Below are positions 40,948-59,945 of a stretch of 64,000 nucleotides of DNA, piece after piece; position 1 is the stretch's first letter; each line of letters starts with the position of its first letter. Source of the stretch: Nitrosomonas sp. Nm132 (GTDB taxonomy: Bacteria; Pseudomonadota; Gammaproteobacteria; Burkholderiales; Nitrosomonadaceae); NCBI RefSeq assembly GCF_900100485.1, contig NZ_FNDH01000003.1:1-64000 (forward strand). Direction: 5' to 3'. The notes below the pieces were generated by a model. The model was not told the DNA's origin. It did not search any database and saw only the letters and a list, made by a program, of their open reading frames with translations. A program made the translations under genes and the position numbers.

Positions 40948-43736
40948 TTTCTAAGCTGCCTGTGCGGCAGCGAACTGAGTAAAGAACTTTACATTGGGCG
41001 TGTGAGCTTTCTAAGCTGCCTGTGCGGCAGCGAACGTTGTCATCATTAATAGCGTCGCCTTCTTCCCTTTCTAAGCTACCTGTGCGGCAGCGAACATCGG
41101 AATTGTATACGCCATCGTCTTTCCTATTTTCTAAGCTACCTGTGCGGCAGCGAACTTTCCGGGCGCGCTCTAAGCCGATATTCGACCTTTCTAAGCTACC
41201 TGTGCGGCAGCAAACCTAGTGAAATCCAGCATGTTTATCTCAGTATCTTTCTAAGCTGCCTGTGCGGCAGCGAACGATCCCGAGCTGAAATCATTGCTGC
41301 AGCAGCTTTTCTAAGCTGCCTGTGCGGCAGCGAACCGCCTACCACGCTGTGCGCGGCAATAGCGACTTTTCTAAGCTGCCTGTGCGGCAGCGAACAATCT
41401 GAGAAGTGCCAGCGACTCATTATCACTTTTCTAAGCTGCCTGTGCGGCAGCGAACTATCTCATAGTTACCACTGGATAATGATAATTTTTCTAAGCTGCC
41501 TGTGCGGCAGCGAACAACTAATGGTCGTTGGTTCTACTGCTTTGTCATTTCTAAGCTGCCTGTGCGGCAGCGAACAATCCACACACAGCAACGGCTACGG
41601 AGTCGTATTTCTAAGCTGCCTGTGCGGCAGCGAACGAGACGCCCTGGATGCAGGGTACTCGTCATGCTTTCTAAGCTGCCTGTGCGGCAGCGAACGCTTT
41701 TCGCCGGATGGCCTCGCCCACTTCTTTTTTCTAAGCTGCCTGTGCGGCAGCGAACGCACGCTGCGCGGAAAACCATTTTTAGTCACTTTTCTAAGCTGCC
41801 TGTGCGGCAGCGAACTGCCGCTTTATCTCTTGCTGAGCATCGCGCATTTTCTAAGCTGCCTGTGCGGCAGCGAACACAGCGCAACGCTCGCAATGAATGC
41901 GGCAGCCTTTCTAAGCTGCCTGTGCGGCAGCGAACGCTTTTCGCCGGATGGCCTCGCTCACTTCTTTTTTCTAAGCTGCCTGTGCGGCAGCGAACATTCA
42001 GTCACATCTACAATAAAGCGCGCGAGTTTTCTAAGCTGCCTGTGCGGCAGCGAACAATCTGCTTAATATAGATCGCGCTATTTCTTTTTTCTAAGCTGCC
42101 TGTGCGGCAGCGAACGGGCGAAAGATTTATCAGGATCATTTCCAACTTTTCTAAGCTGCCTGTGCGGCAGCGAACTGGTAGACCAAATCTCTTCGGGTCT
42201 TAGCAATTTTCTAAGCTGCCTGTGCGGCAGCGAACATACCTGGTCGGTCATAACGTGGACTTTGACTTTTCTAAGCTGCCTGTGCGGCAGCGAACTCTGT
42301 TTACGCTGCCTTGTCGGATGCTGTGTTTTTCTAAGCTGCCTGTGCGGCAGCGAACGCGAATAGTCATCATATTCTCCGATCAATAAATTTCTAAGCTGCC
42401 TGTGCGGCAGCGAACATGATACCAATGTCCGGGCTGTATCATTAATGTTTCTAAGCTGCCTGTGCGGCAGCGAACGCTAAAAGCTAGGGCGAAAGCGTTT
42501 ACAATCTTTTCTAAGCTGCCTGTGCGGCAGCGAACATCTACGCGATGCGGTGGTTGAAGAATCTGGTTTTCTAAGCTGCCTGTGCGGCAGCGAACTATCA
42601 GATTTAAGAAGATTGATATCCCATTGATTTCTAAGCTGCCTGTGCGGCAGCGAACTCCGCGCTTCGGCATCCTAGTTACGTTTAACATTTCTAAGCTGCC
42701 TGTGCGGCAGCGAACGTGGGCGATTGATCAAATACCTAAGAATGAAATTTCTAAGCTGCCTGTGCGGCAGCGAACTATGAGCGAAAATGCTTAGAAGTTG
42801 GTTATGATTTCTAAGCTGCCTGTGCGGCAGCGAACCCTGGATTTTGGATTTTAGTAATGAGTAGTCATTTCTAAGCTGCCTGTGCGGCAGCGAACACTTC
42901 CCCCCGTCTTTTGCCGTAAATCTTCAATTTCTAAGCTGCCTGTGCGGCAGCGAACGATTTATGCCGACACCCTGGGATATTTTAAAATTTCTAAGCTGCC
43001 TGTGCGGCAGCGAACCGGAACATCTTCTATTGAGATGCCACCTGCAATTTCTAAGCTGCCTGTGCGGCAGCGAACAAATTAAACAATTAGCATACCAATT
43101 TTATCAAATTTCTAAGCTGCCTGTGCGGCAGCGAACTCCTCCAATTGTTTAATAATTCTTTTATGTACTTTCTAAGCTGCCTGTGCGGCAGCGAACATAA
43201 ATATAGGCCCGTGTGACAAACGATATTTTTTCTAAGCTGCCTGTGCGGCAGCGAACACGTCTGATCTGAGCGGATACCGATTTTAAGATTTCTAAGCTGC
43301 CTGTGCGGCAGCGAACGGAACATTGTACCAACCTTTGATTACGTATTTTTTCTAAGCTGCCTGTGCGGCAGCGAACTGGCATTTATCAAAAAGCCCGATT
43401 CCGAAAGATTTCTAAGCTGCCTGTGCGGCAGCGAACTGCTTAAGAGCGCAGGAATGGCGATGTCTAGCTTTCTAAGCTGCCTGTGCGGCAGCGAACTGAT
43501 TAAAGCGATCTCCCGGGCCATCCATTTTTTTCTAAGCTGCCTGTGCGGCAGCGAACAAACAGAGAATTATCGATATCGATGAATCAGTTTTCTAAGCTGC
43601 CTGTGCGGCAGCGAACCGAGACGTAGAGCCATCGTTGCGGCCTTGATCTTTCTAAGCTGCCTGTGCGGCAGCGAACTTGAAACCGACAAACCAATCATCT
43701 TTGTCTCATTTCTAAGCTGCCTGTGCGGCAGCGAAC
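40948..43736 (-). CRISPR. Type I-F CRISPR array, 47 repeats and 46 spacers
   Basis: The 28-bp repeat on the crRNA strand begins GTTCGCTGCCGCACAGGCAG and ends with the I-F handle CTTAGAAA. The CTGCC...GGCAG stem is the Cas6f substrate. All spacers are 32 bp except one of 33 bp at 43076-43108. Three repeats near the far end (41068, 41128, 41188) carry a G-to-A change in the stem on the plus strand, and the last of them also has CAAAC. All others I checked are identical. The handle orientation, the AT-rich leader at the high end and the variant repeats at the low end all say transcription is on the minus strand. Spacers at 41696-41727 and 41936-41967 differ by one base. Confidence 0.98.
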
Positions 43737-43873
43737 TGGAGTATAACACTCAAAAAACTATAAACAACAATCGTTTAATGTGAAATGAACAAAATACCTA
43801 ATAATTTTTCAGTAATTAATAAGTAACTGATTCTTTGTAAATTATTAAAGAACGAAAAAAATAGGTATAAAAA
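43737..43873 (-). promoter_or_regulatory. CRISPR leader with candidate promoter
   Basis: This is a 137-bp strongly AT-rich stretch between the first repeat and the toxin gene. On the minus strand TTGTTT (43767-43762) and TATACT (43745-43740) are 16 bases apart, the best sigma-70-like pair I see. The TATACT ends three bases before the first repeat, so transcription would start inside that repeat but before its hairpin. Confidence 0.6.
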
Positions 43874-44458
43874 TCACAGATAATCTGACAGCAATTCCTC
43901 ACACCATTCTGGAATCGATACTCGCTTTAACTCAAGACATCCGTTGCGTATTACCGCTATTTGCTGAAACGGGCTATCCGCCCGAGAGTTGTCCAGGATG
44001 TATGCTTGATCACATAGCGGTAAAACCTGCTTAACCAATTGCAATACTCTGGGTATTCGCGCCTTAACTTTTTCATCCGGCACAGCATGGCCGCCTTCGC
44101 TCATCCGCTGCGCAATACGCGCGAGGTTGAGTTGTGTCTGTTCAAGGTGAATAAAGACAAGCACAATTTCATAACCCAGCACTTTTGCATTGGCAACAAA
44201 ATCGATTTTAGAGTGATGAGAAAAAACGGTTTCAAAACAGAACGTGCGTCCGTCCTGTAATAGCCGCAAACGAATGGCTTCGGCAATTTTAGCGGCTTCA
44301 TAGCTGTATTGCTCGGGTTGATCCGGATGTAACTGCTTCGCCAGGATATCCGCATTCACAAAAGGCATACCGAGCGGTTTAAGTTGCAGCCGGTAAAACG
44401 TAGTTTTTCCGGCGCCGTTGCCGCCCGCAAGCAGCCAGAGTTGTTTTTCTTTTTTCAA
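43874..44458 (-). CDS. Zeta-type toxin kinase
   Basis: The 194-residue P-loop protein has Walker A GGNGAGKTTF near residue 12 and VNADILAKQLHP, the substrate-binding pattern of zeta/PezT toxins. It also has FETVFSHHSKIDFV, a basic SEGGHAVPDEKVKARIPR lid region and a C-terminal ILDNS segment. Zeta toxins phosphorylate UDP-N-acetylglucosamine or related substrates and poison the cell. The start is TTG overlapping the antitoxin stop (TTGA). It lies in the same direction as the cas operon and directly precedes the CRISPR leader. Confidence 0.82.
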   Translation of the reverse strand: MKKEKQLWLLAGGNGAGKTTFYRLQLKPLGMPFVNADILAKQLHPDQPEQYSYEAAKIAEAIRLRLLQDGRTFCFETVFSHHSKIDFVANAKVLGYEIVLVFIHLEQTQLNLARIAQRMSEGGHAVPDEKVKARIPRVLQLVKQVLPLCDQAYILDNSRADSPFQQIAVIRNGCLELKRVSIPEWCEELLSDYL

Positions 44459-44877
44459 GTGACGCTTTCATTCAATGGAATAAACTGGCCGTTCTGAAAA
44501 CGGCCGGTAGTGATGTTGCCTTGCTGATCAATACGCTCCAGATACCCCGGATGTTTTGATGAAGTCTGATAGCGGATCGCTGCGGATGTAACACGCCCGG
44601 ACAGCGATCCGTTTTTCCGGTCGTTCTCAAGTGTTTTAAAAACTTCAGCCGGATCGACTGGAATGCCATAGACGGGTTCCACTTTTATTCTTGAAAGCCC
44701 CAACTTGACGGATAACATCACATCAGGATCAAGCGTATCAGCCACAGAACGCCCGAGCTCCGCCCAAAACTCTATCTGTTCGGCGGTGCTGCGATGAAAA
44801 CGGTCAGCAGTCAACTCTGCTGCTTTCATCAGTTCTTCTTGCAACCGAATGGGGGATGCCGATTTTGCCATAGTCAT
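44455..44877 (-). CDS. ParD-like antitoxin of the zeta-type module
   Basis: The 140-residue protein has the ParD-like antitoxin pattern SPIRLQEELMKAAELTADRFHRSTAEQIEFWAELGR (a ribbon-helix-helix variant). The C-terminal tail reads GYLERIDQQGNITTGRFQNGQFIPL. It overlaps the toxin start by four bases and precedes it. The second ATG at 44871 is better spaced from the GAGG upstream and may be the true start. A perfect 19-bp palindrome 30 bases upstream is a natural operator for autoregulation. Confidence 0.8.
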   Translation of the reverse strand: MTMAKSASPIRLQEELMKAAELTADRFHRSTAEQIEFWAELGRSVADTLDPDVMLSVKLGLSRIKVEPVYGIPVDPAEVFKTLENDRKNGSLSGRVTSAAIRYQTSSKHPGYLERIDQQGNITTGRFQNGQFIPLNESVT

Positions 44878-44987: not shown

Positions 44988-45632
44988 CTAAAATTCAGGC
45001 ACGGTTGCTGTGGAACTCAGGCCATAAGTCGTAAAAGTTCCGTCATTATAATTTTCAACATCCGTTTTCTTAATCCACAAGCAAAATGTATTACCGTTAC
45101 TCAAACTTTTCAGTCGGATAAACGGTGTGGTGATGGTTTTATGCGGCATTTCACTGTAGCTCATCAACATTCTTTCACACTCGGTTGTATTATCGTACCT
45201 TGCACTCAATTCAACCTTGCCATTGAACGCGGTTTCGTAATCTAGCCCATGCCGCCTGGCATAACGCCGGGCCAACCGCTCTCTGCCGGTTTTAGGTTGC
45301 TCACGCTGATAAATAGCATAGCCTTTGACTGCGCCTGGTACCGGACGGATACCAGTGCAATGCACGTAATCGCTCAAACGGCCTAATCGTTTGTCCGCGT
45401 CGAACTGGGTTAGCACAGTTTCATCCGGCGCAAACAACCGCAACTTGCTGCCCAGGACACCAAATTTTTCACCCAGTTTGTACTCGGGAAAGGATAAGCC
45501 GATCGGCACGCGTTTTTGAGCATCCTGGATTTCAACCAAGCCAAGGTGGATTTGCTGGAAGGTTTTGGACCAGAGGCTAAAAAAATTAATTTCAGCATTG
45601 GATAACAAGCTGATTTCCTGATAATAGTTCAT
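44988..45632 (-). CDS. cas6f: Cas6f (Csy4) crRNA endonuclease
   Basis: This 214-residue RAMP protein has N-terminal MNYYQEISLLSNAE and a His at residue 29 (QQIHLGLVEIQD), matching the catalytic H29 of Pseudomonas Csy4. The Arg-rich helix RERLARRYARRHG binds the repeat hairpin groove. Then comes the C-terminal SNGNTFCLWIKK segment. It cuts the repeat transcript 3' of the stem and stays bound to the crRNA. AAGGAG ribosome site. It is the last gene of the cas operon, 12 bases after cas5fv. Confidence 0.93.
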   Translation of the reverse strand: MNYYQEISLLSNAEINFFSLWSKTFQQIHLGLVEIQDAQKRVPIGLSFPEYKLGEKFGVLGSKLRLFAPDETVLTQFDADKRLGRLSDYVHCTGIRPVPGAVKGYAIYQREQPKTGRERLARRYARRHGLDYETAFNGKVELSARYDNTTECERMLMSYSEMPHKTITTPFIRLKSLSNGNTFCLWIKKTDVENYNDGTFTTYGLSSTATVPEF

Positions 45633-45644
45633 TATTTCTCCTTA

Positions 45645-46673
45645 TCACCGGATAACATCAACATACGCCAAGCCTTTCTTGCCTAAATAGAAACTTGACA
45701 CACCAGCATCGTCAATCATACTTTTCAACCGCTGAGCTTTATCTTCTGGAATATCGAGAAGAATTTCCAGCGTACCGTTTGCTTTGGTTAATAAAGAAAC
45801 CACTTCACCTTCGCCTTTGCGTTTTTCCTTCAGCTGGTATGGATTTCCCCATATTGGTTTTTTACTACCCGTGGTGTATCGATCCATAAAATCTTTTGGC
45901 GTATAACCACGTTTTGAAATACCGGCTAAACCACCATTTTTTGTAAGTGCGAGTGATACGTCATATTTCTGACTTAAACGACCAATCTGCAAATACAACG
46001 CTGAACAGTACAATTCAATTGGTTTTATTTTGTTTTCGATGATTTTATAAGCCACGTCAGAAAAACGTTTCTGCAATGTATCCAAAGCATTCTTTACCAT
46101 TTCAATATCAATGGCCTTTAATTTGTTTAATTCATCCAGTTTTTGTAAAGCGTCTAAAGGATCAAATTGCTTGGAAGAGTGTATTTGAAAGCTTTCATCA
46201 ATAATAAAGCGGCAAAGGTTTTCAATATCAAGCGTCAAAACTCCCCAAAAAATGTTTGAATAATCTGATCTAAAAACCGGATCGTTTGCTTTAATCATTC
46301 CAGTGAATGAATTCTGATCTGTATTTCCTTCCATATTTCGGATATAAACCGTTTCAGCATTGACAGACTCACTTTGATTCTGCTGGTCGTTAAAAGATAT
46401 GCATTCTTCCAAATCTGAAAAGAAGTATTTAGGACAATTTCTGGATTGATAAAGCTTTCTTTGATCACCGATAAGTCGATTCAATACTCCCATCACTGTG
46501 TCATGAGTAATTTCACGTTTGATAAAATTCGGATAATTGCCTTGATTATCCCGTTTTCCCAAAGTCGTCATTGAACCGACAAATGTCCGACCACCTTTTG
46601 GTAATGGTTCGTTATTGGAACCGTCCAAGAACGAATTTCGCCAGGATGCTTCATATTTAATAGTAATCCGCAT
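45645..46673 (-). CDS. cas5fv: Cas5fv of type I-F2
   Basis: The 342-residue protein begins MRITIKYEASWRNSFLDG and has FVGSMTTLGKR, ITHDTVMGVLNRLIGDQRKLYQ and a C-terminal FYLGKKGLAYVDVIR. This matches Cas5 of the I-Fv (I-F2) variant known from Shewanella putrefaciens CN-32. That Cas5 binds the crRNA 5' handle and, through an extra domain, takes over PAM recognition from the missing large subunit. It sits between cas7fv (9 bases upstream) and cas6f. It is not similar to Csy2 of the I-F1 type. Confidence 0.88.
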   Translation of the reverse strand: MRITIKYEASWRNSFLDGSNNEPLPKGGRTFVGSMTTLGKRDNQGNYPNFIKREITHDTVMGVLNRLIGDQRKLYQSRNCPKYFFSDLEECISFNDQQNQSESVNAETVYIRNMEGNTDQNSFTGMIKANDPVFRSDYSNIFWGVLTLDIENLCRFIIDESFQIHSSKQFDPLDALQKLDELNKLKAIDIEMVKNALDTLQKRFSDVAYKIIENKIKPIELYCSALYLQIGRLSQKYDVSLALTKNGGLAGISKRGYTPKDFMDRYTTGSKKPIWGNPYQLKEKRKGEGEVVSLLTKANGTLEILLDIPEDKAQRLKSMIDDAGVSSFYLGKKGLAYVDVIR

Positions 46674-46682
46674 GATTCTTCC

Positions 46683-47657
46683 CTATTTGGCATAAAAATA
46701 AATGGTATAAGGGGATTTTGGTTCTTCGTTAATTCCGGCTGAGTTGCGCTTTATGCGCATCATTTTGTTGCTGTCGTTGTAATCAACTAGCAAGTTATCG
46801 ACATACATATAGCCTTTGGCTTGACGAATACTAAGTTCTTCAATCATGCGCAATGTTTCTTTGACGAGAATATCTGTCGCTTCGTTATCTAATAAAATGC
46901 CGACTTCGCCTTCCTCGAAAATCGTTCCACCACGCACGTAGTTGGAGTGAAACACAGCCTTGGGATTACGGTTAGGGTCGATTGATTTAATGAAACCTTG
47001 TACTGCCTGAGCAACTTTTTCGCCTTCACCGTCTTTGATAACCATTGAAGCCCGGTCGAATTTTTTATCCAGAGAAATGAATTGCAATTGTTCAATACTG
47101 ATTGAACCGTAAGCTAAATATTCTGTTTCACCAAACGTGGTTTTGGAGAAAAAAGAGTTGCTGGCAATATCATCGCCTTTATCGTCCTTGTCTTTTTCTT
47201 TGGTACCGGAACGCCCCATTTGTTCGAAATTGCCGTTACCCAATTGATCAATGAAATCTTCCAATAGCAACGGGCTGGTTCGTTTACATTGACTGGCTGG
47301 AACTACATAACCGCGGACCAAACCGGTGATCGACGTTAGCACAGAAAGCAGATTTTTATCCTTGGCGTAATGTAGATCAAAGGCTTGATCTCTAAATATA
47401 TGGTGCCTTATACAGTTTTGGCTGATATACATTGGTGTTTGTTTAAAATCGATTTCCGACGGGTCTTTTTTCAATTTATAGCCTTTATCACTTTCTTTGC
47501 CGGTTAAATTGGTATAGCCGCGTAATTTTGGCATCGAATGGTTATCGATAATGCGCCCATCGCTCTGCAAAGTAGTCGGACCATTCCAGTTAACCACTCC
47601 ATATCCATAAGCAACTACTTTAAAATCCACGCTTTTAATTCCGGTAATTTTTGGCAT
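46683..47657 (-). CDS. cas7fv: Cas7fv of type I-F2
   Basis: The 324-residue RAMP backbone subunit begins [27 protein letters not shown] and contains [27 protein letters not shown] and a C-terminal [12 protein letters not shown]. It coats the crRNA spacer in multiple copies in the I-Fv Cascade. A Lys/Asp-rich insert ([12 protein letters not shown]) is probably a flexible thumb loop. It follows cas2-3 by two bases. With no Cas8f or separate small subunit, this and Cas5fv make up the whole DNA-binding complex with Cas6f. Confidence 0.88.
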
Positions 47658-47659
47658 AC

Positions 47660-50587
47660 TTAATCCTCGTTAGTTGTTAATTGCTTGATTGAAATTGCGC
47701 CGATGGGCTGTTTGTCGCACACGGCATAGTAAATAGCATAACTATGCCGCGCGCTTTCCCCGCCAACCTGGTCCAGACCTTCTGGGGTATAGCTTAGATA
47801 AACGGGAAATTCCGGGTCTCTTGCCTCGTTGAGCAAAATGAAATCTTTGTATGCTTTCTGACCACCGATAATATTGTGGTGTTTGCTTTTCATGTAAGCC
47901 AACAAGTTTCTATCGCTATCGCCGTAGCCTTGGATTTCATCCAGCGACGCAGTCAAATTGTCGAATTGCTCGCGGTCGCTCACTGGAGCTTGGTAAGCAT
48001 ATTCGTTCAAGAATTTGATCTTTGGCCATTGACTAACCTCGCATATCGCCATTTGCACAAACCGATTTTCACCGCGTAAAGAATGTTTGCTGATTTTGCT
48101 GCGACCTTTCTCAGTAGTTTTTTTCGGTGGAATGGTAATCGGATCGACAACCTTGTTTTGAATCAACTGTACGCCCTGTTTGAAGCAAGCCAATAAATCC
48201 GATTCCATTGCCTGCTTGGCAAGTTCTGTTTCATGAAATTTTCGGTACAGCGAATAAAGCTTTGGCAATTGGATTGTTTGGTTCTCAATTTCTTCGGTTT
48301 GCAAAAAGCGATACCAAACCTTGGTGGCGGCGAAGGAATATTGCCGGTTTAGGAATCGGGCGGCTGCTCCGGTGCCTTTACCTTGATGGATCAATTCCGG
48401 CACAGCAACACAGTAAATATTGGTTGCAGAATTGGCTCCGAATCGATCGAGCCGACCCAAACGTTGCAGAAAATTTTCTGCAGTCGTGAGTTCGGACACC
48501 ATATAATCGGAAGTGATATTTAACGATGCCTGCACAATCGGCCCGGCTCGCAATACATTGTATTTTGGAGTACCGTTTTTTTTGAAGGATTCGTACACTT
48601 CATCGAACAATTTGTGCTTATCGCTTTTTTTGAACTTGGAATGTAGCAATATTGCATTTTCGGCATTCTGATTGCGAATAAAGCTTTTTTGTGCAGTTTG
48701 GGCGGTATTACTGATTACAATGGTATTACCGCTTTGCTCGTAATACAGCGGGTTGCTTTCATCCTGTAGTATTTCATCGAATATCTTGAATTCAATAGAA
48801 TATTTACTAGGATTGAAACTGGGCATTTCGATAATGTCTTCCGGTTGAATCCCTATGACGGCGTCAAGGAAAAAGTAATGCGGTGTGGCGGAAACCAGCA
48901 AGGTATTGGCAAGCCTTCCTTGAGATTTTTTGCATTCGACCAATTCTGCAAATAACAGGTTGAACGCCGGCATGGCGATATATTCGTGAAACTCATCAAA
49001 TACGACATGCGCGTTCAAGACATTAATCAGCGTGTTCACCTTTGTGTGGGTGATAATGGTGCTGAATACTTGATCGATGGTAGTGATGACGATATCGCCA
49101 GAAAAAAAATCGTCTTCCGCCGTACCTTTTCCCCATTTTCTGGTGTATTTGAACTCGCCTGTATTAATTTCGATATTGGTGTCTGGCAAATATTGCTCGG
49201 AAGTCAATTCGAGAAATAAACCTTGGCAGACTTGTACACGTGGACAAATCCAAATGATTTGCTGACCATTCTTTAACATTGCCCACTCCAATGCAATCTT
49301 GGTTTTACCACATCCGGCTGGGCCAGACAGAACGGCAACATCGTTTACTTTGCTGAGCTGAACGGCGATTTCATGCTGTTTGCTAGTGCGCTCGCTGGAC
49401 GGAAATTGCGTCATGCAGGATTGAATTTGCGAACACAAACTACTTTCTGACAGCAAGGTCTCGTCGACCAAACGGTGTAAAGTTTGATATCTGACATGGT
49501 TGTGCAAATCTTCAGCGGATAATCCGGAGATCAATCGGTCTACGGAAACGACACACGCGCGCATTAGATTGTGTAGGGCGTTGGCGGTAATTTGCTGTCG
49601 ATAATCGTCGATACGATTTTCCAGCTCATACGTTTTGTAGTTGGGTAGCGGTGTTGTCTTGATGTTAGCCAATGAATCCAAATCTACCGTTTCGCAGTAA
49701 ATTCTGTTAATCAACGATGTTTCGGTGTTCCGATATTTTTGATCAATTTCACCAATTTGTTGTAACAGCCGTTGTGCTTTCTCAACGATTTCCGAAAACT
49801 GGAGAGACCCTAAATTGCCGTTAAATTTTTTATGAATTCCGCCAAACGTCGAAAACTCAGGGTCTTTTTCCTTACGGTATGGTTTGGCATGGTGCCAATA
49901 AATAGTATGCTTGATTGCGTTCTTGTGACCAGTACTGATACCTTTGAACGAGACAGGATCGAGTAATTGATAAAGCAGAACAGAGATCTCGTTATGGCGC
50001 GGATGCTTTTCGAAGCTGAATTTGGTGTCGTTTATGTGCTGGCCGTCCTCCGCCTGGCAATCTTTTTTCTTCGGGTTTCTCACCCAATCCTGAAAGGCAG
50101 GATCGATTTTCCCGGCATCGTGCAAACAACCCGCGACAAATGTCGCGTCTGCGCCGTTTTTATTGTCCGGCGTCAAACGCGCTAGCAGTTGCTCTGCTAC
50201 ATAACCCACAGCGAACAAATGTTCTGCCAATGCCTGTAGGTGGGTGTTGGCATAGAGAAAATTGGGATTAGGTGCTTGTTTGGGTATGTCCATTATGAGT
50301 TCCTTGGTGGTGGAATTTACTGGCACGATGCCTTGCGGATTGAATTGGTCTCGATTCCCCACAATCCAAACCAACTCGCTTCGACTCCGCGATCTGATCC
50401 AATGACAAGCCACAGCGGTATTTTTGGTGGCAGTTTTGCGCAGCAGGGTTTTGACGGCGATCAATCCTTCTTCCGTGATGACGGTTTGCCAGGCGTTGTC
50501 GCCGATGCGGTTGGCAAAAGCATCCAGTACTCGCCGGGTACGACTAAGCGCTTTTTTCTCGCATTGGCTGACGAAGGTAACCATCAT
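47660..50587 (-). CDS. cas2-3: Cas2-Cas3 fusion nuclease-helicase (type I-F)
   Basis: The protein has 975 residues. Residues 1-95 are the I-F Cas2 domain. An HD nuclease follows (H123 in [11 protein letters not shown] at 156-157 in GCLHDAGK, then [11 protein letters not shown] and YWHHAKPYR). The superfamily-2 helicase has Walker [10 protein letters not shown] near 425, DEFH in VVFDEFHEY near 530, VSATPHYF, and motif VI in [13 protein letters not shown]. It degrades targeted DNA and, through Cas2, joins Cas1 in spacer acquisition. It overlaps cas1 by four bases (ATGA). All catalytic motifs I can see are intact. Confidence 0.95.
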
Positions 50588-51567
50588 GATTGATTCCCCT
50601 CACCCCGTCCCTCTCCCAGGGGGAAAGGGGGATTTTGTAGAGCTTGTTGCTTGACTTGCTCGAACATGAAATCCATGGCCTTGTGTTCGGTAAATTTTTG
50701 CAGGATTTGCTGGCGGAATTCCTGTTCGCTCATTTTTTCCTTGGCACAAACGAAGGCCCAAGGCAGGACGATGGCGTCTTTGACCAGATCGGCGATGTCG
50801 AACACCAGTGCGCCGCGGCGAGTTTTTCCGTGCATCACAGCAAAACCATGCGGTATTCCCAATACCCAGAGTGTGCTTGCTGCAAGGCCATAGGCCAAAT
50901 AATTACCATGATTCAGAAAAGCGTTTGCACTGTCGGTGCTGTCGTAATTGCGCACGAAGTCTTTTTGCTGGGTTCGGCTGACGGCGACTTTGTAGAGGTT
51001 TTTGGTGAGCTGCGCTTCGATCAACAATAACTCGGTTACATTAGCGGCTTGTTCTACTTTGTTCGTGTAGCCCGCGAATGCTTGCGTGACATCCTGGTCG
51101 TCGATAAAGAAGCTCTCATTTTTTAAATCTTTATCTTTGCTCCATGCGCTTTGCAAGTAATTGATGCGCAAGAGCTGAAAGTGTTTTGCGACTTTTAATC
51201 GCTTCTCATCATCAAACCAAAAAGATAACCATCCTTGAACATATTCTGTGGGGCGATACTCGCTTTGCGGTGTGAGCCATTCAATTTCAGTTCCCATCAG
51301 CAGCGGTGTGCCGCCGCCACCACTGAAACCGATCAAAACACCGGCCGATGCGAGCATGCGTACCGCCGCCTGCGTAATTGAAGTCCCGGTACCTAATAAA
51401 ATAACCGTAGTATTGGCAATCGGAATATTCCAGTAAAGTTGCTCATCTTTGGCTTCTGTCAAATAGAGAACACGCCCATCTTTTTGCATCACACGGCACT
51501 TTTCCAGGTAATAAATATTGGCTCGTTTGGAGTGCAGAATTGCTTTTAAATCGGTTAATTGCTCCAT
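50584..51567 (-). CDS. cas1: Cas1f integrase
   Basis: The 327-residue spacer-acquisition nuclease of the I-F group has an N-terminal LKAILHSKRANIYYLEKCRV and TVILLGTGTSITQAAVRMLASAGVLIGFSGGGGTP. The C-terminal helical domain has the metal-binding LNHGNYLAYGLAASTLWVLGIPHGFAVMHGK and GALVFDIADLVKDA. The last 16 residues or so ([16 protein letters not shown]) come from a dispersed palindromic repeat and are not part of the family. It is the first gene of the operon. GGGGG lies ten bases before the ATG. Confidence 0.95.
   Translation of the reverse strand: MEQLTDLKAILHSKRANIYYLEKCRVMQKDGRVLYLTEAKDEQLYWNIPIANTTVILLGTGTSITQAAVRMLASAGVLIGFSGGGGTPLLMGTEIEWLTPQSEYRPTEYVQGWLSFWFDDEKRLKVAKHFQLLRINYLQSAWSKDKDLKNESFFIDDQDVTQAFAGYTNKVEQAANVTELLLIEAQLTKNLYKVAVSRTQQKDFVRNYDSTDSANAFLNHGNYLAYGLAASTLWVLGIPHGFAVMHGKTRRGALVFDIADLVKDAIVLPWAFVCAKEKMSEQEFRQQILQKFTEHKAMDFMFEQVKQQALQNPPFPLGEGRGEGNQS
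50592..50636. repeat. Dispersed CCCTCTCCC-type palindrome within the end of cas1
   Basis: CCCTCACCCCGTCCCTCTCC and the following AGGGGGAAAGGGGG form the hairpin repeat widely scattered in proteobacterial genomes. It lies in frame at the 3' end of cas1 and encodes PFPLGEGRGEG. Confidence 0.65.
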
Positions 51568-52391: not shown

Positions 52392-53359
52392 CTAACCATA
52401 TTTTTTTATCACTGCCCGCAGGCGAGTGATGACTTCCTGCCGTAATTCAGCCGGCTCCAATACTTCCACTCCAGCGCCATGCTTCAGAATATCCATCACC
52501 AGTTCGCTGGCATTGGCATAAGGGATGCGCAGTTCATAGCTGCCATCGGATAACAGTGTTCCTTGTTGCTGGGGATGCCATTGTTCATCGGCAACCCAGC
52601 GGGCGCGCTCGGGTGAGAAAAGCACACGGCGGTCTCTTTAGGTTTGCCGGCAAAAATACCGTAGCTGGAAGCAAAATGGACGTCGAGTTCAGCGTCGCTG
52701 AATTCGAGCGCAGCCTGATCGAGCGAATGAGATGCGCTGATACGGTCGACGGCAAAGCTGCGCAGCGCCTCACGCTTATGGCAATAAGCATCCAAATACC
52801 AGTTATCGCGATAATGAGTGAGGCGCTGGGGTGAAATCTGGCGCTGGGTAGTCTGGTCGTTGCTGCGACTGTGATAGAGGATGTGCAACCGCTTTCTTTG
52901 CAGCAATGCACTGGTCACGGACTGGAAATGCTCCGTGGCCGGTTTTCTTGCGGTCATTTGTAAAATACGGATGCGCCTGGCGATTTCATCCTTGTTTGAC
53001 TGTATAGTGGCAAGAATTTTTTCCAGACGGGCTTTTATCGGCTTGAGACGATCGTCTAATAACCCGGGCTGAGTTTGTTCCAGCAACTGCTGCACGGTCA
53101 ACAGTGCATACAGTTCATCAGCATTGAACCACAGTCCCGGTAGTTCAAAGACCTCCCCTTCGCGGGTCTCATAGAAATAGCCATTGCGTTCACGGTCGTA
53201 TTTCAGCGGCGCATTAAAGTACAGCCGCAATTCGTCAATGATGCGCTTGACCGTGGCGTGTGAGCATTCGAGTTTTTCCTCGAGTATTTGTCGTGAAACA
53301 GGCTGCCGCCTGGTGGCAAGTATTTGGTGCAGCTTGTAAATGCGTTGCAGACGGTCCAT
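52392..53359 (-). pseudogene. WYL-domain regulator (YafY-like), frameshifted
   Basis: An N-terminal helix-turn-helix (RQILEEKLECSHATVKRIIDEL) is followed by the WYL domain (ILYHSRSNDQTTQRQ, SPQRLTHYRDNWYLDAYCH, LRSFAVDRI). After FAGKPKETAV the frame breaks near 52622-52627. The natural continuation LFSPERARWVADEQWHPQQQ, then GTLLSDGSYELRIPY and LRQEVITRLRAVIKKYG, lies in another frame down to 52392. A single lost base explains it. WYL proteins sense ligands or nucleic acid and often regulate CRISPR or other defence genes, but here the gene converges on nothing and is probably dead. Confidence 0.8.
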
Positions 53360-53614
53360 TCTGGCTACTCTGTTTATTTTTGTTATACCGCATGGCTAAC
53401 CCGGCTTAGCTCCTGGATGAATAACGGTGGATTTAACCACAAGCTACGCAATTTATGAGAAATGCATTCCTATTTTGATCGATCATACCAGCCATGCCAG
53501 CGGCAATACATAACAAACGGCTGGTCGGAGTAGAACTTAACAGCAATACCCGGACGAGTAAAACCGGGTCGCTGGGAGAATGGTGCAGGTCTGGGTTTTA
53601 ATAATCAGAATTTA

Positions 53615-53649
53615 TTATCCACAAATTCCGTGGATAAGGCTGTGGGTAA
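53615..53649. promoter_or_regulatory. Cluster of three DnaA boxes
   Basis: TTATCCACA (53615-53623, perfect consensus) is followed by CGTGGATAA (53629-53637) and TGTGGGTAA (53641-53649) in the opposite direction, all within 35 bases. The rest of 53360-53781 has no gene. A CTCGCCCT...AGGGCGAG hairpin at 53732-53758 follows the AddA-like gene. Confidence 0.55.
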
Positions 53650-53731
53650 CTGCTTTATGTCGCGGAAGGGCAATGATTATTCGGGGTGCTTCAAAAAGAT
53701 GCCACAAAGTGTGATGGACTTACTTCTTCCT

Positions 53732-53758
53732 CTCGCCCTTCGACAGACTCAGGGCGAG
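53732..53758. terminator. Hairpin after the AddA-like gene
   Basis: CTCGCCCT and AGGGCGAG form an 8-bp stem around TCGACAGACTC. It matches the dispersed CGCCCTTCGACAGGCTCAGG repeat known in many bacteria. No U-run follows, so termination is uncertain. Confidence 0.4.
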
Positions 53759-53781
53759 CAGTACGAGAATGAGTCAGGTAT

Positions 53782-56700
53782 TCACTTTATCGCATATGGC
53801 CATTCCCGCCATTCTCTGAGCATCGGGAAATACAGTCCTAACCGGATAGGTCGTTGCTCTCTCTGCTGCATCAAGTTCGCATAGCGTTCCAGTTGCGGGC
53901 GATAGCGCAGCTGTTCTCGATCGAGGAAGGCTTCGATATCGCTGCCCAGGTGGGTACCTGTTTTGTAATCGATAATCCAGCGTATGCCTGTTGCATCGAC
54001 AAAAGTTCGGTCCATGACGATATGATCGAGTCCTTCTTCGCGCATGCCGCTCAATGCCCATTCGCAATGGGCGTCGGCATGCTGTCCGCTTAGAATCCAA
54101 CGGCCTCTTTCATCCTCCCACAGGGTCTTGAGTGCGGTGGATAGTTGCATCAACGCATGATCGAAATGAGTCTGCGCGACCCCATTTTGCATCAGCAAAA
54201 CCCGGCCAGCCTGTTCAAAACGGAACAAATCCTGGCGGCCAAAACATTCGATGCCGGTTTTACCGATATGCTGCAGCAAGCGATGTAGGACTGTGCCGAC
54301 CTGCCGGGCGGTTTCGCCCGCCCAGTCAAATTCGATCGACTCTTCCGTGATCTGGCGCGAGGCTGCAATGGTCACTTTGACAGCTTCAGGCGGTGGAGGG
54401 GAAGCCCAGTCCGCCGCCAGACGAAATCGTTTAGCCGGAAGTAGGGGTAGCCACTGAGTAGTCAGTTCTTTCGAGGCATTTTCTGCCGATTCTTTATCGC
54501 TAACCTGAGCATTCAGCAAAGCCTGAAAATGCGCTTTTACTACTGGCCATAGCCGCGCCAGCAGGGAATTTTCAGGCGGGGGCTTAATTTCCATGATCTC
54601 TGCATCCGAGTGGTTCACATGGCCGAACAGATGCAGGCGATGTTTAGCGCGTGTGGCCGCAACGTATAGCAAGCGGCCATTTTCCCGATAGCCTTTTGAT
54701 TTATCCAATTGCCGCAGGGAGGTCATAATCGGATTGGCGTCATCACCCATTGCACTGATCGGTGCAAGCAGCAATGCGGGGTAACCCGATTTGAGTTGAT
54801 GTTTCATCCAATATAGTAACTTGGTTTCATCATGCTTGCCCGTCCGGCCAAGGCCCGGCAGGATCACCGTATCGAATTCCAGTCCTTTCGCCTTATGGAT
54901 GGTCATGAGCTGCAGCGAGCCATCCGCCATCACGTCCGGCAAAGCGTAGAGTCGAGCGACACGTTCATCGAGTATCTGAATATCCGGCAGTTGACCGGCT
55001 TCGGTCAATTCTTCCAGCAACTGGAAGTAAACCTCCGCGTCGTCCAGATCCGTTTCATCCGTCACACAGGCCGGTCCGCCCAGTGCGATCCACGTGCCTT
55101 CCACATTCCTGCGCAAGGAACGTGCTGCCTGCTGAATGATCGCGCTTTCAACGATGGGCAGTACGCGGGCAAGCCGCTGCTGGCCATCCTCACTGAGTTG
55201 CGCAAGCTGGGTTGAATCCCGCAGCAAATCAATGATCGTTTTTTGAAAATCGCCACCCGCCAAGGCATACAGGTCCTGCAGCGTCAATCCACACCAAGGC
55301 GCACGCAGCAACGCCAGCCAGGCGATACGATCGCCATGGTGCAGCAAGGCGCGGGTCAGGGCAAGCAAATCCTGGATTATGGATCGGTGCGTGAGCCGTT
55401 CGATTTCGACTGCCTGAAAACGCAGCCCGGCCTGCTTCAGTTGCGCGATGATCTGCACGAGGTGGGAGCGGTTCCGAACCAGGATGGCGGTCGTGCCACT
55501 CGAATAGGCCATTTTGGCCTGCTGCACAATCGATGCGATTTGTTGCGCCTCGGCCTGATCATCCCGTTGCAGCGAAGGATAAAGGGTGACCGCTTCAGGG
55601 TGAGTGGCTGCATGAAAAGCGACGGACGGTGCATAGGACACGGCGCTTGAGGCTATCTCGTCCTTTGCGGGCAAAATGGCAGGGAAATGCTGATTGATCC
55701 AGTCGATGATCCCCTGCTGGGAACGAAAATTGACCGATAAGCGCAGAAATTCAAGTGGAATCTGGCCAAATACGCCATGATCGCGGATCTCAAGGAATAA
55801 GCCTACTTCAGCTTGCCGGAAGCGGTAAATGGATTGCATGGGATCGCCCACCAGAAAAAGCGTGCGGCCATCATCCGGTTGCCAGCCCGCGGTCAATCGC
55901 GCCAGCAGCTCGGCCTGATTGAACGAGGTATCTTGAAATTCATCGACCAGCAAGTGCTGGATACGGTAGTCCAATGCCAATGCCAGATCGGTGGGCGCAT
56001 CAGGTTCCCCAAGCGCCTGAATCGCAGCCAGTGTCAGCGCTGGAAAATCGACCTGCCCCATTTCACGAAATGTGACTTCCAGATACCCCGCCGCTACTGT
56101 GAGCAGTTTGAATAATGCTTGCAGCGTCTCCCATTCATCCTCTCTGTATTGATGCGGGGGTAATGTCCGGATCAAGGCCAGTTGCTGGACAAATTCATTT
56201 TCAGTCACCAATGCTTGCAGCAAGTCCTCCATTCGCTGCTTCATCTCGCGATAGTGCGCCTTTTCTTCTGGATGACTTCCCTGAGAAGCAGGAGGAAACC
56301 CTTCATTTTTGCTCACTCTCTTTCGCAATTCGCCCTTGCTCGTCAACAACAAGGTGGCGAGTCCTTCCCATTGCGGCCGGTCGGTGATTTGCCAACCTGG
56401 TAAATCCTGCAGGGTTTGGCAATGCGCAATGACAGAATCGCCCGTTTCAGGCTGGTTTGCGGCAAACTTTGCCAAAGCGACGATCTCCGCGCGATTAACG
56501 GCAGGAGCCTGATCAACGAGCGTTCGTAACGCATCGGTCACCCATTCAGTCAATCCGGCTTCCAGTTTGTCACGCATGAGCACTTCATGATGGGGCCCCG
56601 CCAGATAAGCGAGCCATTGATCACGCCGCGCGAGCATGCTCGCGATCAACTGCTGGAGCTTGTCCAGTCGGTTATCCAGATGCGCGATCAAATGCGCAAT

Positions 56701-57219
56701 GGCATCCGACCATTCACCCTCCGACTCGACTACCTCGATCGTTTGCCGGGCCGCTTCCTGATAGAGATCGGATGCTTCCTCCGCGATCGATGGCAGCACA
56801 CCGAACTCAGAAAGAATGGGCATTTGGCTGACCAGTCCAGCGCACAAGGAATCAATCGTCTGAATGCGCAAGCGGGCAGGATTCTCGAGCAATTGCCAGT
56901 CTTTGGCCTGATCGTGCGCCAGCACACGCTGGGCTAGCTGCCAGGTTTGGCGTGCGTATTCTTCTTGCGGAGGCGAAGTATCTTGAGCAGTGGTCAATGC
57001 CTGCAGAATCCGTTGGCGCATTTCGCTTGCGGCCTTACGGGTAAAAGTGATCGCTACGACTTCCTCGGGTGAATCGACTCTCGCCAGGAGTACCAGAAAC
57101 CGCTGGGTCAGCAGGCCAGTTTTGCCTGATCCAGCAGGCGCCTGAACGATAAAAGACTGCTGTGGATCGAGCGCTCGCAGCCGCTCGGCCTGGTCGGCGA
57201 CTTCCGGTCGTATCGTCAT
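53782..57219 (-). CDS. AddA-like UvrD-type helicase-nuclease
   Basis: The 1145-residue superfamily-1 helicase has Q-motif and Walker A FIVQAPAGSGKTGLL (about residue 25), VAITFTRKAASEMRQR, Walker B LLVDEFQDTSFNQAELL, VGDPMQSIYRFRQAEVGLF, LSVNFRSQ, MTIHKAKGLEFDTVILPGL and LLYVAATRAK. At the C-terminus is a RecB-type nuclease: GTVLHRLLQHIG, later TFVDATGIRWIIDYKTGTH. It pairs with the next gene (four-base overlap) to resect double-strand breaks before recombination. It belongs to the proteobacterial AddA-like branch. Such enzymes also supply DNA fragments for CRISPR adaptation. Confidence 0.88.
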   Translation of the reverse strand: MTIRPEVADQAERLRALDPQQSFIVQAPAGSGKTGLLTQRFLVLLARVDSPEEVVAITFTRKAASEMRQRILQALTTAQDTSPPQEEYARQTWQLAQRVLAHDQAKDWQLLENPARLRIQTIDSLCAGLVSQMPILSEFGVLPSIAEEASDLYQEAARQTIEVVESEGEWSDAIAHLIAHLDNRLDKLQQLIASMLARRDQWLAYLAGPHHEVLMRDKLEAGLTEWVTDALRTLVDQAPAVNRAEIVALAKFAANQPETGDSVIAHCQTLQDLPGWQITDRPQWEGLATLLLTSKGELRKRVSKNEGFPPASQGSHPEEKAHYREMKQRMEDLLQALVTENEFVQQLALIRTLPPHQYREDEWETLQALFKLLTVAAGYLEVTFREMGQVDFPALTLAAIQALGEPDAPTDLALALDYRIQHLLVDEFQDTSFNQAELLARLTAGWQPDDGRTLFLVGDPMQSIYRFRQAEVGLFLEIRDHGVFGQIPLEFLRLSVNFRSQQGIIDWINQHFPAILPAKDEIASSAVSYAPSVAFHAATHPEAVTLYPSLQRDDQAEAQQIASIVQQAKMAYSSGTTAILVRNRSHLVQIIAQLKQAGLRFQAVEIERLTHRSIIQDLLALTRALLHHGDRIAWLALLRAPWCGLTLQDLYALAGGDFQKTIIDLLRDSTQLAQLSEDGQQRLARVLPIVESAIIQQAARSLRRNVEGTWIALGGPACVTDETDLDDAEVYFQLLEELTEAGQLPDIQILDERVARLYALPDVMADGSLQLMTIHKAKGLEFDTVILPGLGRTGKHDETKLLYWMKHQLKSGYPALLLAPISAMGDDANPIMTSLRQLDKSKGYRENGRLLYVAATRAKHRLHLFGHVNHSDAEIMEIKPPPENSLLARLWPVVKAHFQALLNAQVSDKESAENASKELTTQWLPLLPAKRFRLAADWASPPPPEAVKVTIAASRQITEESIEFDWAGETARQVGTVLHRLLQHIGKTGIECFGRQDLFRFEQAGRVLLMQNGVAQTHFDHALMQLSTALKTLWEDERGRWILSGQHADAHCEWALSGMREEGLDHIVMDRTFVDATGIRWIIDYKTGTHLGSDIEAFLDREQLRYRPQLERYANLMQQREQRPIRLGLYFPMLREWREWPYAIK

Positions 57220-59945
57220 GATTCATTCCCCTTATCCCCTGCCTCGGCATCGGCTTCATCCAGCAAGGTCAATTCATTGATGCGGCACAGCGGGTGTAGC
57301 GTGCAGTAGGTACACGTGGCAGGGTATTGCTTGGGATCGACCGCCGCTTCGCCACGGCAGAAGCTGTCGCCAAGCCTTTCCAGGGTCGCTCGCCAATGCG
57401 CCAGCACTTGCGGCCAGTCGCCTATCTCACGGGTCTGCGGCAGCTTTTCATGGGATTTCACTCCAGGCAAAATTCCCTCCTCCATTGTGACGCCACTGAA
57501 TGCCATCTGACCCGCTCGCACCTGGGCAAAGGCCATGCCGGCAAGATTCTCGGTGGAAATCAGGCTGTAGAGCGGCAATTGCGGCTCATCGGGGCGGTCT
57601 CCGAACCATTGGCTGGCTTTGGCTTCACCTGTTTTGTAATCAATGATCAATCGACACCCGTCTGCGATTTCATCGATGCGATCGACTTTGAGCTGAATGT
57701 TGAGCGTGCCCACAACCCATTCATATTTTTTTTCTTTCTCAATGACCCGGAAAGGCGAACGATTTTTTTCCAGATCCAGCCATGACAGTACTTGACGATG
57801 CAACCTATCAGCCTCCATGGCCCTAAAGCGTCGGGTAAATGTTTGCGGATAATGCGGCGCTATTTCAGTGATAGCCGCATTGATTTGATCCAGCACCAGT
57901 GTGCTGAGTTGGGTATCTGGCAATGCGACCAATTGTTCGTGCGAGTCTAGCCTATCCCAGACTTTTTCCATGATGCGATGCAGAAGATTACCTCGCGCCA
58001 TGGCATTCAAGCCGATCTGGATTCCCCCCAGCGGCCCGGCACCCAGACGTAACTCCGCAAATGCCCGGAAGGGACATGCCGCCTGCAACTTGAAAATGCG
58101 ACTGCCGCCGCTGGTTGTCGTCTGCGCCAGAGATGGCGCGGGATCATGAAGCCACTCACTCAACTGGGCGCTACGATGCACAGTATCACGCCATGAAACG
58201 ATCTTACTCACTAACAGCGACTCCACTGCCAGAGAGGGGAAATCCTTGATCATAGGGCTAGGACGCAATGCTTCCTCGCCATTCCGCTGCGGATAACTGA
58301 CAATCACCTCATCGGCGCTCGTTATGATGCGCTGGGTAAGCCTGCGCGTCACAGACAATTCACGTTGTTCGCTTGAATGCGGCAACTCATTTTTGCGCTG
58401 TAATGGCAAGGGAATGAAGGGATTAGGCTGGGGCGATGGCGGCCATACCCCATCATGCAGCCCCATGATCCATAGATGATCGAACTGCATACCATGCGCT
58501 TCGAGCGGGCCGAGCACCTGAACCGGTGCAACGCCTGTTTGCGGTTGAAAAATGCGCTCTCCAGTCATTTGCCCAAGCTGACTCAATGCAGCAGACCATG
58601 ATATCTCTCCCGTTACCCAATCCAGCGTAGCCAATTCCGCCAATAAGGCATGCCACGCTTCAACTGTCTGATATTCATCACTCGATAAGCGGTATCCTTC
58701 CAGCCAGCCGACCGTCTTGAGTAGCTGGGCGAAATGCTGCACCCATTGCCCTGGATGATCCTTGCGTGGACAGGTTTGCAGCCACGTTCTCAGCATATCG
58801 AGTTTCTTTTCCAGTACGGCGCAGGCATAGCTGCGATTTGTTTTTGACGCATGATAATGCAAGGTATCAAGGGATACACTGGGCTCACCCGTTTCGCGCA
58901 ACCGCACATCCAGCAAGGCGCGTGCGCTCGACTCCTGCTCCCAGCCCGCAATAAAGGGCGAGTGAAGCAACAGGCTCACGTCCTGGAGGCTGATCGTAGG
59001 CTTGAACAGTTCAAGCAGCTTCAATGTCACCGTGATCAGCGGAAAGGCGCCCAATGACTTACCGAGAGACACATTGTAGGGGCGCTCCTGATTCGAATGC
59101 CCGGGATGAAAAATTTGCGGAATCAGGATTTCATCCAATGCATGCGTAACGACTTCACGGTGAGAAGACAGCTCTGGCACTACAATCCCTATTTGCGCCT
59201 CAGGATGATGCTCCAGCTTCTGCCGCACCCAGCGCGCCATCAAGATCGCCTCCTGACGATTGTCGGCGCTCGCAATCCGGGCTATTTGACTGTTTTTTGG
59301 CTTTAATTGCAGCCACTGCACTTTGCAACCCAATCGATCCAGCGTTTCCAGCAAAACAGATTGCTGAGGCGTGAGCTCATCAAAGCCGGTTAACACCAAC
59401 TCATTGGGTGCCTGCAATGCTTCCCGCGCAAAGCAATGCCTGAGCTGATCCGGTAGGCAGGCGATCGATAACCAGCCTTTTTGCTGGCAAATACGCTGAA
59501 AGAATGACTGCCATTTCCAGAATAATCGGCTGTCATCGTTGTACTGAAAAATTGACTCATTTTGCGGTAAGCACCATTCCTGCAGCAACTGCCAGGCTTT
59601 CTGCACCTGGAACGCAGTCCTGCTCATCGGCTGAAATGACAGATCCGAAGCGATCATCTCCTGCCAAATAGCACGCTCCTGATAAGGCGTAAGCAGTCGT
59701 CCAAATTCAGAAAATGCGCCTGATATCAGGGCTTCCTCCCATAACCGTTGCAGCCAGCTATTCCACGGCAAAATATCCGGTGTCAGCCAGGGTTCTGCAT
59801 CCCCAGCAACTGCCGCCTGGTCAAAATGTTGATGAAGCACGTGAGCCAGGCGCTGATTTCCGGTAATTACCGTGATGCCTTGGTTTAATTTAGCGAGAAT
59901 ATCCACGCTATCAGCCAGCAGTGGATCAAGCCGGTAAGCTTTCAT
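57216..59945 (-). CDS. AddB-like PD-(D/E)XK nuclease subunit
   Basis: The 909-residue partner of the AddA-like helicase has a helicase-like N-terminal half that is degenerate (VITGNQRLAHVL). The C-terminal nuclease domain shows GNLLHRIMEKVWD, VDRIDEIADGCRLIIDYKTGEA and QLPLYSL. Four Cys (AACPFRAFAELRLG plus CTYCTLHPLC) match the AddB-type iron-sulfur staple. It forms the second nuclease of the two-subunit resection complex. It is the first gene of the pair; upstream is the divergent secreted-protein gene. Confidence 0.85.
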   Translation of the reverse strand: MKAYRLDPLLADSVDILAKLNQGITVITGNQRLAHVLHQHFDQAAVAGDAEPWLTPDILPWNSWLQRLWEEALISGAFSEFGRLLTPYQERAIWQEMIASDLSFQPMSRTAFQVQKAWQLLQEWCLPQNESIFQYNDDSRLFWKWQSFFQRICQQKGWLSIACLPDQLRHCFAREALQAPNELVLTGFDELTPQQSVLLETLDRLGCKVQWLQLKPKNSQIARIASADNRQEAILMARWVRQKLEHHPEAQIGIVVPELSSHREVVTHALDEILIPQIFHPGHSNQERPYNVSLGKSLGAFPLITVTLKLLELFKPTISLQDVSLLLHSPFIAGWEQESSARALLDVRLRETGEPSVSLDTLHYHASKTNRSYACAVLEKKLDMLRTWLQTCPRKDHPGQWVQHFAQLLKTVGWLEGYRLSSDEYQTVEAWHALLAELATLDWVTGEISWSAALSQLGQMTGERIFQPQTGVAPVQVLGPLEAHGMQFDHLWIMGLHDGVWPPSPQPNPFIPLPLQRKNELPHSSEQRELSVTRRLTQRIITSADEVIVSYPQRNGEEALRPSPMIKDFPSLAVESLLVSKIVSWRDTVHRSAQLSEWLHDPAPSLAQTTTSGGSRIFKLQAACPFRAFAELRLGAGPLGGIQIGLNAMARGNLLHRIMEKVWDRLDSHEQLVALPDTQLSTLVLDQINAAITEIAPHYPQTFTRRFRAMEADRLHRQVLSWLDLEKNRSPFRVIEKEKKYEWVVGTLNIQLKVDRIDEIADGCRLIIDYKTGEAKASQWFGDRPDEPQLPLYSLISTENLAGMAFAQVRAGQMAFSGVTMEEGILPGVKSHEKLPQTREIGDWPQVLAHWRATLERLGDSFCRGEAAVDPKQYPATCTYCTLHPLCRINELTLLDEADAEAGDKGNES

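Follow-up and report, generated by a model that had tools for sequence, protein, structure and literature searches.

The 64,000-nt stretch of Nitrosomonas sp. Nm132 DNA analyzed here (hereafter, the window) carries a type I-F2 (I-Fv) CRISPR-Cas system on its minus strand. Five adjacent genes (44988–51567) encode Cas6f (Csy4) (44988–45632; TIGR02563, 4.8e-35), Cas5fv (45645–46673; PF20158, 1.3e-68), Cas7fv (46683–47657; NF040577, 6.3e-143), a Cas2-Cas3 fusion of 975 aa (47660–50587; TIGR02562 at residues 1–141, with the Cas3 core and HD domains), and Cas1f (50584–51567; TIGR03637, 3.9e-142). The type I-F2 assignment follows from the presence of cas1f with the cas2-cas3 fusion, of cas7fv, cas5fv, and cas6f, and of a 28-nt repeat with 32-nt spacers. 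Within this locus the large subunit (Cas8f/Csy1) is absent, all five genes belonging to other cas families. Shewanella putrefaciens CN-32 has an I-Fv (I-F2) system with the same spacer length and the same effector, made up of Cas7fv, Cas5fv, and Cas6f and lacking a large subunit (PMC7266957), although the host differs: the genome under study encodes AmoA, and its bearer is thus an ammonia oxidizer. Between the leader and cas6f (43874–44877) are a zeta-toxin/AAA_33-like gene and a ParD-like antitoxin gene. The region upstream of cas1f (52496–59945) encodes a WYL-domain regulator and two large AddAB-like proteins with UvrD helicase and PD-(D/E)XK nuclease domains.

The CRISPR array (40948–43736, minus strand) consists of 47 repeats of 28 nt (GTTCGCTGCCGCACAGGCAGCTTAGAAA in the crRNA sense) and 46 spacers, all of 32 nt except for a single 33-nt one, and is the only array with this repeat in the assembly. 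Beyond its last repeat lie 160 AT-rich bases (43737–43896, minus strand) that, on inspection of the printed sequences, closely resemble the array leader of a relative from the same genus (G040, locus L019); the low end of the array shows no such resemblance by inspection. Repeats 3–5 (41068–41215) share the variant CTACC in place of CTGCC, repeat 5 additionally has GCAAAC, and repeats 1 and 2, beyond them, are canonical; this pattern at the old end of the array suggests past recombination or gene conversion.

Two spacers of this array, at 41696–41727 and 41936–41967 (both 32 nt, minus strand), are identical at 31 of 32 bases in pairwise comparison within the array and are separated by three other spacers, exactly as the original prediction had described. 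The sole difference is C at 41718 against T at 41958 on the plus strand. In the crRNA sense this is position 10 counted from the PAM-proximal end, with G in the guide carrying the C allele (5'-AAAGAAGTGGGCGAGGCCATCCGGCGAAAAGC) and A in the other. With the leader lying at the high end, the T copy (number 30 from the leader) is the newer and the C copy (number 34) the older. Among 46 random 32-mers, about 1e-14 such pairs would be expected by chance, and the next most similar spacer pair in the array is identical at 18 of 32 bases. The neighbors of the two copies, at offsets from -6 to +6, are dissimilar (5–14 of 32 bases identical), which excludes a tandem block duplication in one step. Neither spacer has a further copy in the assembly, and the arrays of eight relatives have no spacer in common with this one.

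The original prediction had proposed searching with both spacers for natural targets carrying each allele, and this yielded none in any collection: searches of IMG/VR, INPHARED, PLSDB, 85,000 species genomes, and 125 genomes of the family turned up no protospacer. Exact and codon-degenerate searches of IMG/VR gave no match, INPHARED and PLSDB gave weak partial matches (none full length), and the whole continuous array used as query retrieved no convincing target. Degenerate peptide searches with the pair returned only matches at chance level; the only one from the genome contigs, in locus L134, belongs to a short reading frame on a contig from Bacteroidia and was judged to be chance. Codon-degenerate matches in four relatives, two of which were read (L131 and L133), run antisense to a ppx exopolyphosphatase-like gene, and another in L129 falls in a gene for a BepA-like M48 peptidase (GFNPDGMADFFG, identity read from the sequence). 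Because the number of codon-degenerate matches was close to the control level, no target is named.

The pair was compared with other arrays of its kind. Type I-F and I-F2 loci were sampled from relatives, from the class, and from a second order, and arrays were located by script with a simple finder made for this analysis, giving 92 arrays including that of the window (43 in a first set and 49 in a second) with 3,845 spacers. Isolated spacer pairs in the same register with 1–6 mismatches number 27 including the window pair, at separations of 2 to 72; without it, 26 such non-tandem variant pairs are spread over 17 arrays. A further 25 pairs overlap with a shift or on opposite strands, and as duplication cannot generate these, re-capture of homologous sites is common in these arrays. 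Exact copies in tandem, in blocks, or at the same spacing account for 31 pairs, and seven exact pairs are isolated (separations of 2, 2, 3, 4, 5, 5, and 23). For an array of this kind, the window pair is ordinary. In one relative from the same genus (L016), spacers 7 and 35 cover overlapping sequence on opposite strands and differ at four positions within it; this is a single locus captured twice, from diverged targets.

The mismatches of the variant pairs favor one codon phase. In the 26 pairs outside the window, crRNA positions equal to 1 mod 3 (1, 4, 7, 10, and so on) account for 51 of the 82 mismatches, compared with a mean of 27 under random rotation of phase at the level of pairs (p = 3.5e-5). 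The phase came to light in the first array set (32/50; p = 0.0002); the second set, on which it was subsequently tested, provides the cleaner evidence (19/32; p = 0.026). Positions 1 mod 3 are in the wobble phase if a Gly or Pro codon begins with the GG/CC PAM; the need for this PAM at both captures would favor sites where it starts a conserved Gly or Pro codon. All four changes between spacers 43 and 46 of L115 are synonymous in the phase frame (PNVEQAGNWIK), as are all four between spacers 5 and 77 of L039 (PVDFGIDRIRQ), and the pairs L113 26/37 and L078 3/50 are likewise fully synonymous in this frame. In a relative from the same genus, L017 spacers 1 and 3 differ by four changes (positions 7, 10, 13, and 16) that are synonymous on the opposite strand, where the frame has a stop only in the last (outermost) codon, in both spacers. 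Some other variant pairs are non-synonymous in either frame, and the phase is a tendency rather than a rule. Six residues of the L115 peptide, QAGNWI, are also encoded in frame within the gene for a Pseudomonas phage Kakheti25 virion protein, at a site that matches the spacer at 23 of 32 bases and lacks the PAM; degenerate searches of IMG/VR with the L115 and L017 pairs gave no match.

The window mismatch, at position 10, conforms to the predicted phase, as one mismatch in three would by chance, and is synonymous in the Gly-PAM frame: the plus-strand frame before the PAM position reads FSPDGLAHFF, with GCC and GCT both encoding Ala. Read in this phase, the opposite strand has a stop in the newer allele. 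As a lone mismatch it adds little to the codon-phase case (about 0.62 against 0.34). That near-identical I-F spacer pairs, the window pair included, record synonymous divergence of target genes in one codon phase has, in our judgment, an even chance of being correct.

Based on the base rates and the codon phase in other I-F arrays, we consider it probable that the two spacers were captured at different times from one 32-base protospacer present in two sequence variants of a single target, presumably a phage or other mobile element, and that the difference between them is silent. The conserved GG PAM would have fixed the same spacer boundaries at both captures, and the differing base would most likely be a silent difference between target lineages (GCC or GCT in the predicted frame). 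The seed of a type I-F guide comprises positions 1–8, of which 6 is unpaired; the differing base thus lies outside the canonical seed, the point on which the original prediction had asked for a check. A mismatch at position 10 that forms an rG:dT wobble should be tolerated, provided that the type I-F seed rule also applies to I-Fv, and the older guide would probably still recognize the newer target. As recognition was probably retained, the second capture need not have followed escape, and naive or interference-driven acquisition would be enough for it. Two points weigh against this reading: the collections searched yielded no protospacer, and taking the same protospacer twice needs a target family that is met repeatedly or a hot spot. 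Of the proposal of captures from a target and its point mutant, the two target variants are retained, and the point mutant is not supported.

The main alternative, which we regard as unlikely, is that one spacer was duplicated within the array and one copy later mutated from C to T, for example if slippage between repeats had duplicated four units in tandem and three units were then deleted. The original prediction had argued from the differing neighbors that block duplication is unlikely; this holds for a single step, and does not hold for duplication followed by deletion, since the isolated exact pairs of other I-F arrays have the appearance of just that sequence of events. The separation of the window pair (4) keeps the alternative alive and counts against two captures, as it is within the range of 2–5 units seen in six of the seven isolated exact pairs. 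The C/T difference is a transition, and in a large survey duplications predominated among complex events, with 86% of the candidates for duplication classed as such, vs. about 2% as reacquired or independent (PMC11472070). Cases in that SpacerPlacer catalogue of duplications and reacquisitions resemble the window pair in that one spacer occurs twice in one array, and differ from it in that the window pair has one mismatch and different neighbors. Against duplication with mutation stand the three events it needs and the near absence of mutated copies: tandem and block copies comprise 31 exact pairs vs. one single-mismatch pair (L056 39/40), so that a mutated isolated copy should be rare. By our own estimate (roughly 0.04–0.1 times the six isolated exact pairs that are no more than 5 units apart), 0.2–0.6 mutated near-spaced duplicates would be expected, whereas two cases at separations up to 6 are seen besides the window pair (L039 103/105 and L123 11/17).

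It is still less likely that the T allele is a mutant by which the target escaped, and that the older spacer, by recognizing the mutated site in part, primed its re-acquisition. Type I-F priming is strong near an old protospacer (PMC4117759), but it spreads new spacers around the old site rather than placing them specifically on the identical one. A seed escape would place the mismatch within positions 1–8 or in the PAM, whereas that of the window pair is at position 10, would form an rG:dT wobble with the older guide, and is synonymous in the PAM-defined frame; on these same grounds the claims of escape with primed re-acquisition and of an arms race at one locus are not supported. Other arrays contain six isolated pairs with a single mismatch, and in four of these it is at crRNA position 1 or 2, in the PAM-proximal seed (L039 103/105, L044 6/42, L057 46/68, and L078 15/24); for these four, to which the window pair is unlike, seed escape with re-capture and end effects are both possible. 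In Legionella pneumophila, spacer pairs matching LME-1, the older member of which mismatches the seed or PAM, have been taken to mean that closely related elements invaded more than once (PMC5071653). The window pair is like them in comprising the same or overlapping spacers within one array; the Legionella system, by contrast, is type I-C with known targets, and the window mismatch is at position 10. Whether the target difference was neutral or an escape, two captures in all are very probable.

An assembly or sequencing error, or strain variants merged in a draft assembly of 135 contigs, is highly improbable, because both copies are on one contig with distinct flanks, the assembly contains no further variant copy, contamination is estimated to be low (0.06), and even with a wrong base two spacer copies would remain.

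The meaning of the window pair alone is modest, and the codon-phase signal across arrays is a more interesting by-product than the pair itself. Codon phase could help to separate re-capture from duplication where targets are not known, and could distinguish neutral target divergence from seed escape, as in the single-mismatch pairs at positions 1–2. Pairs of this type show that the host has met several variants of one invader gene.
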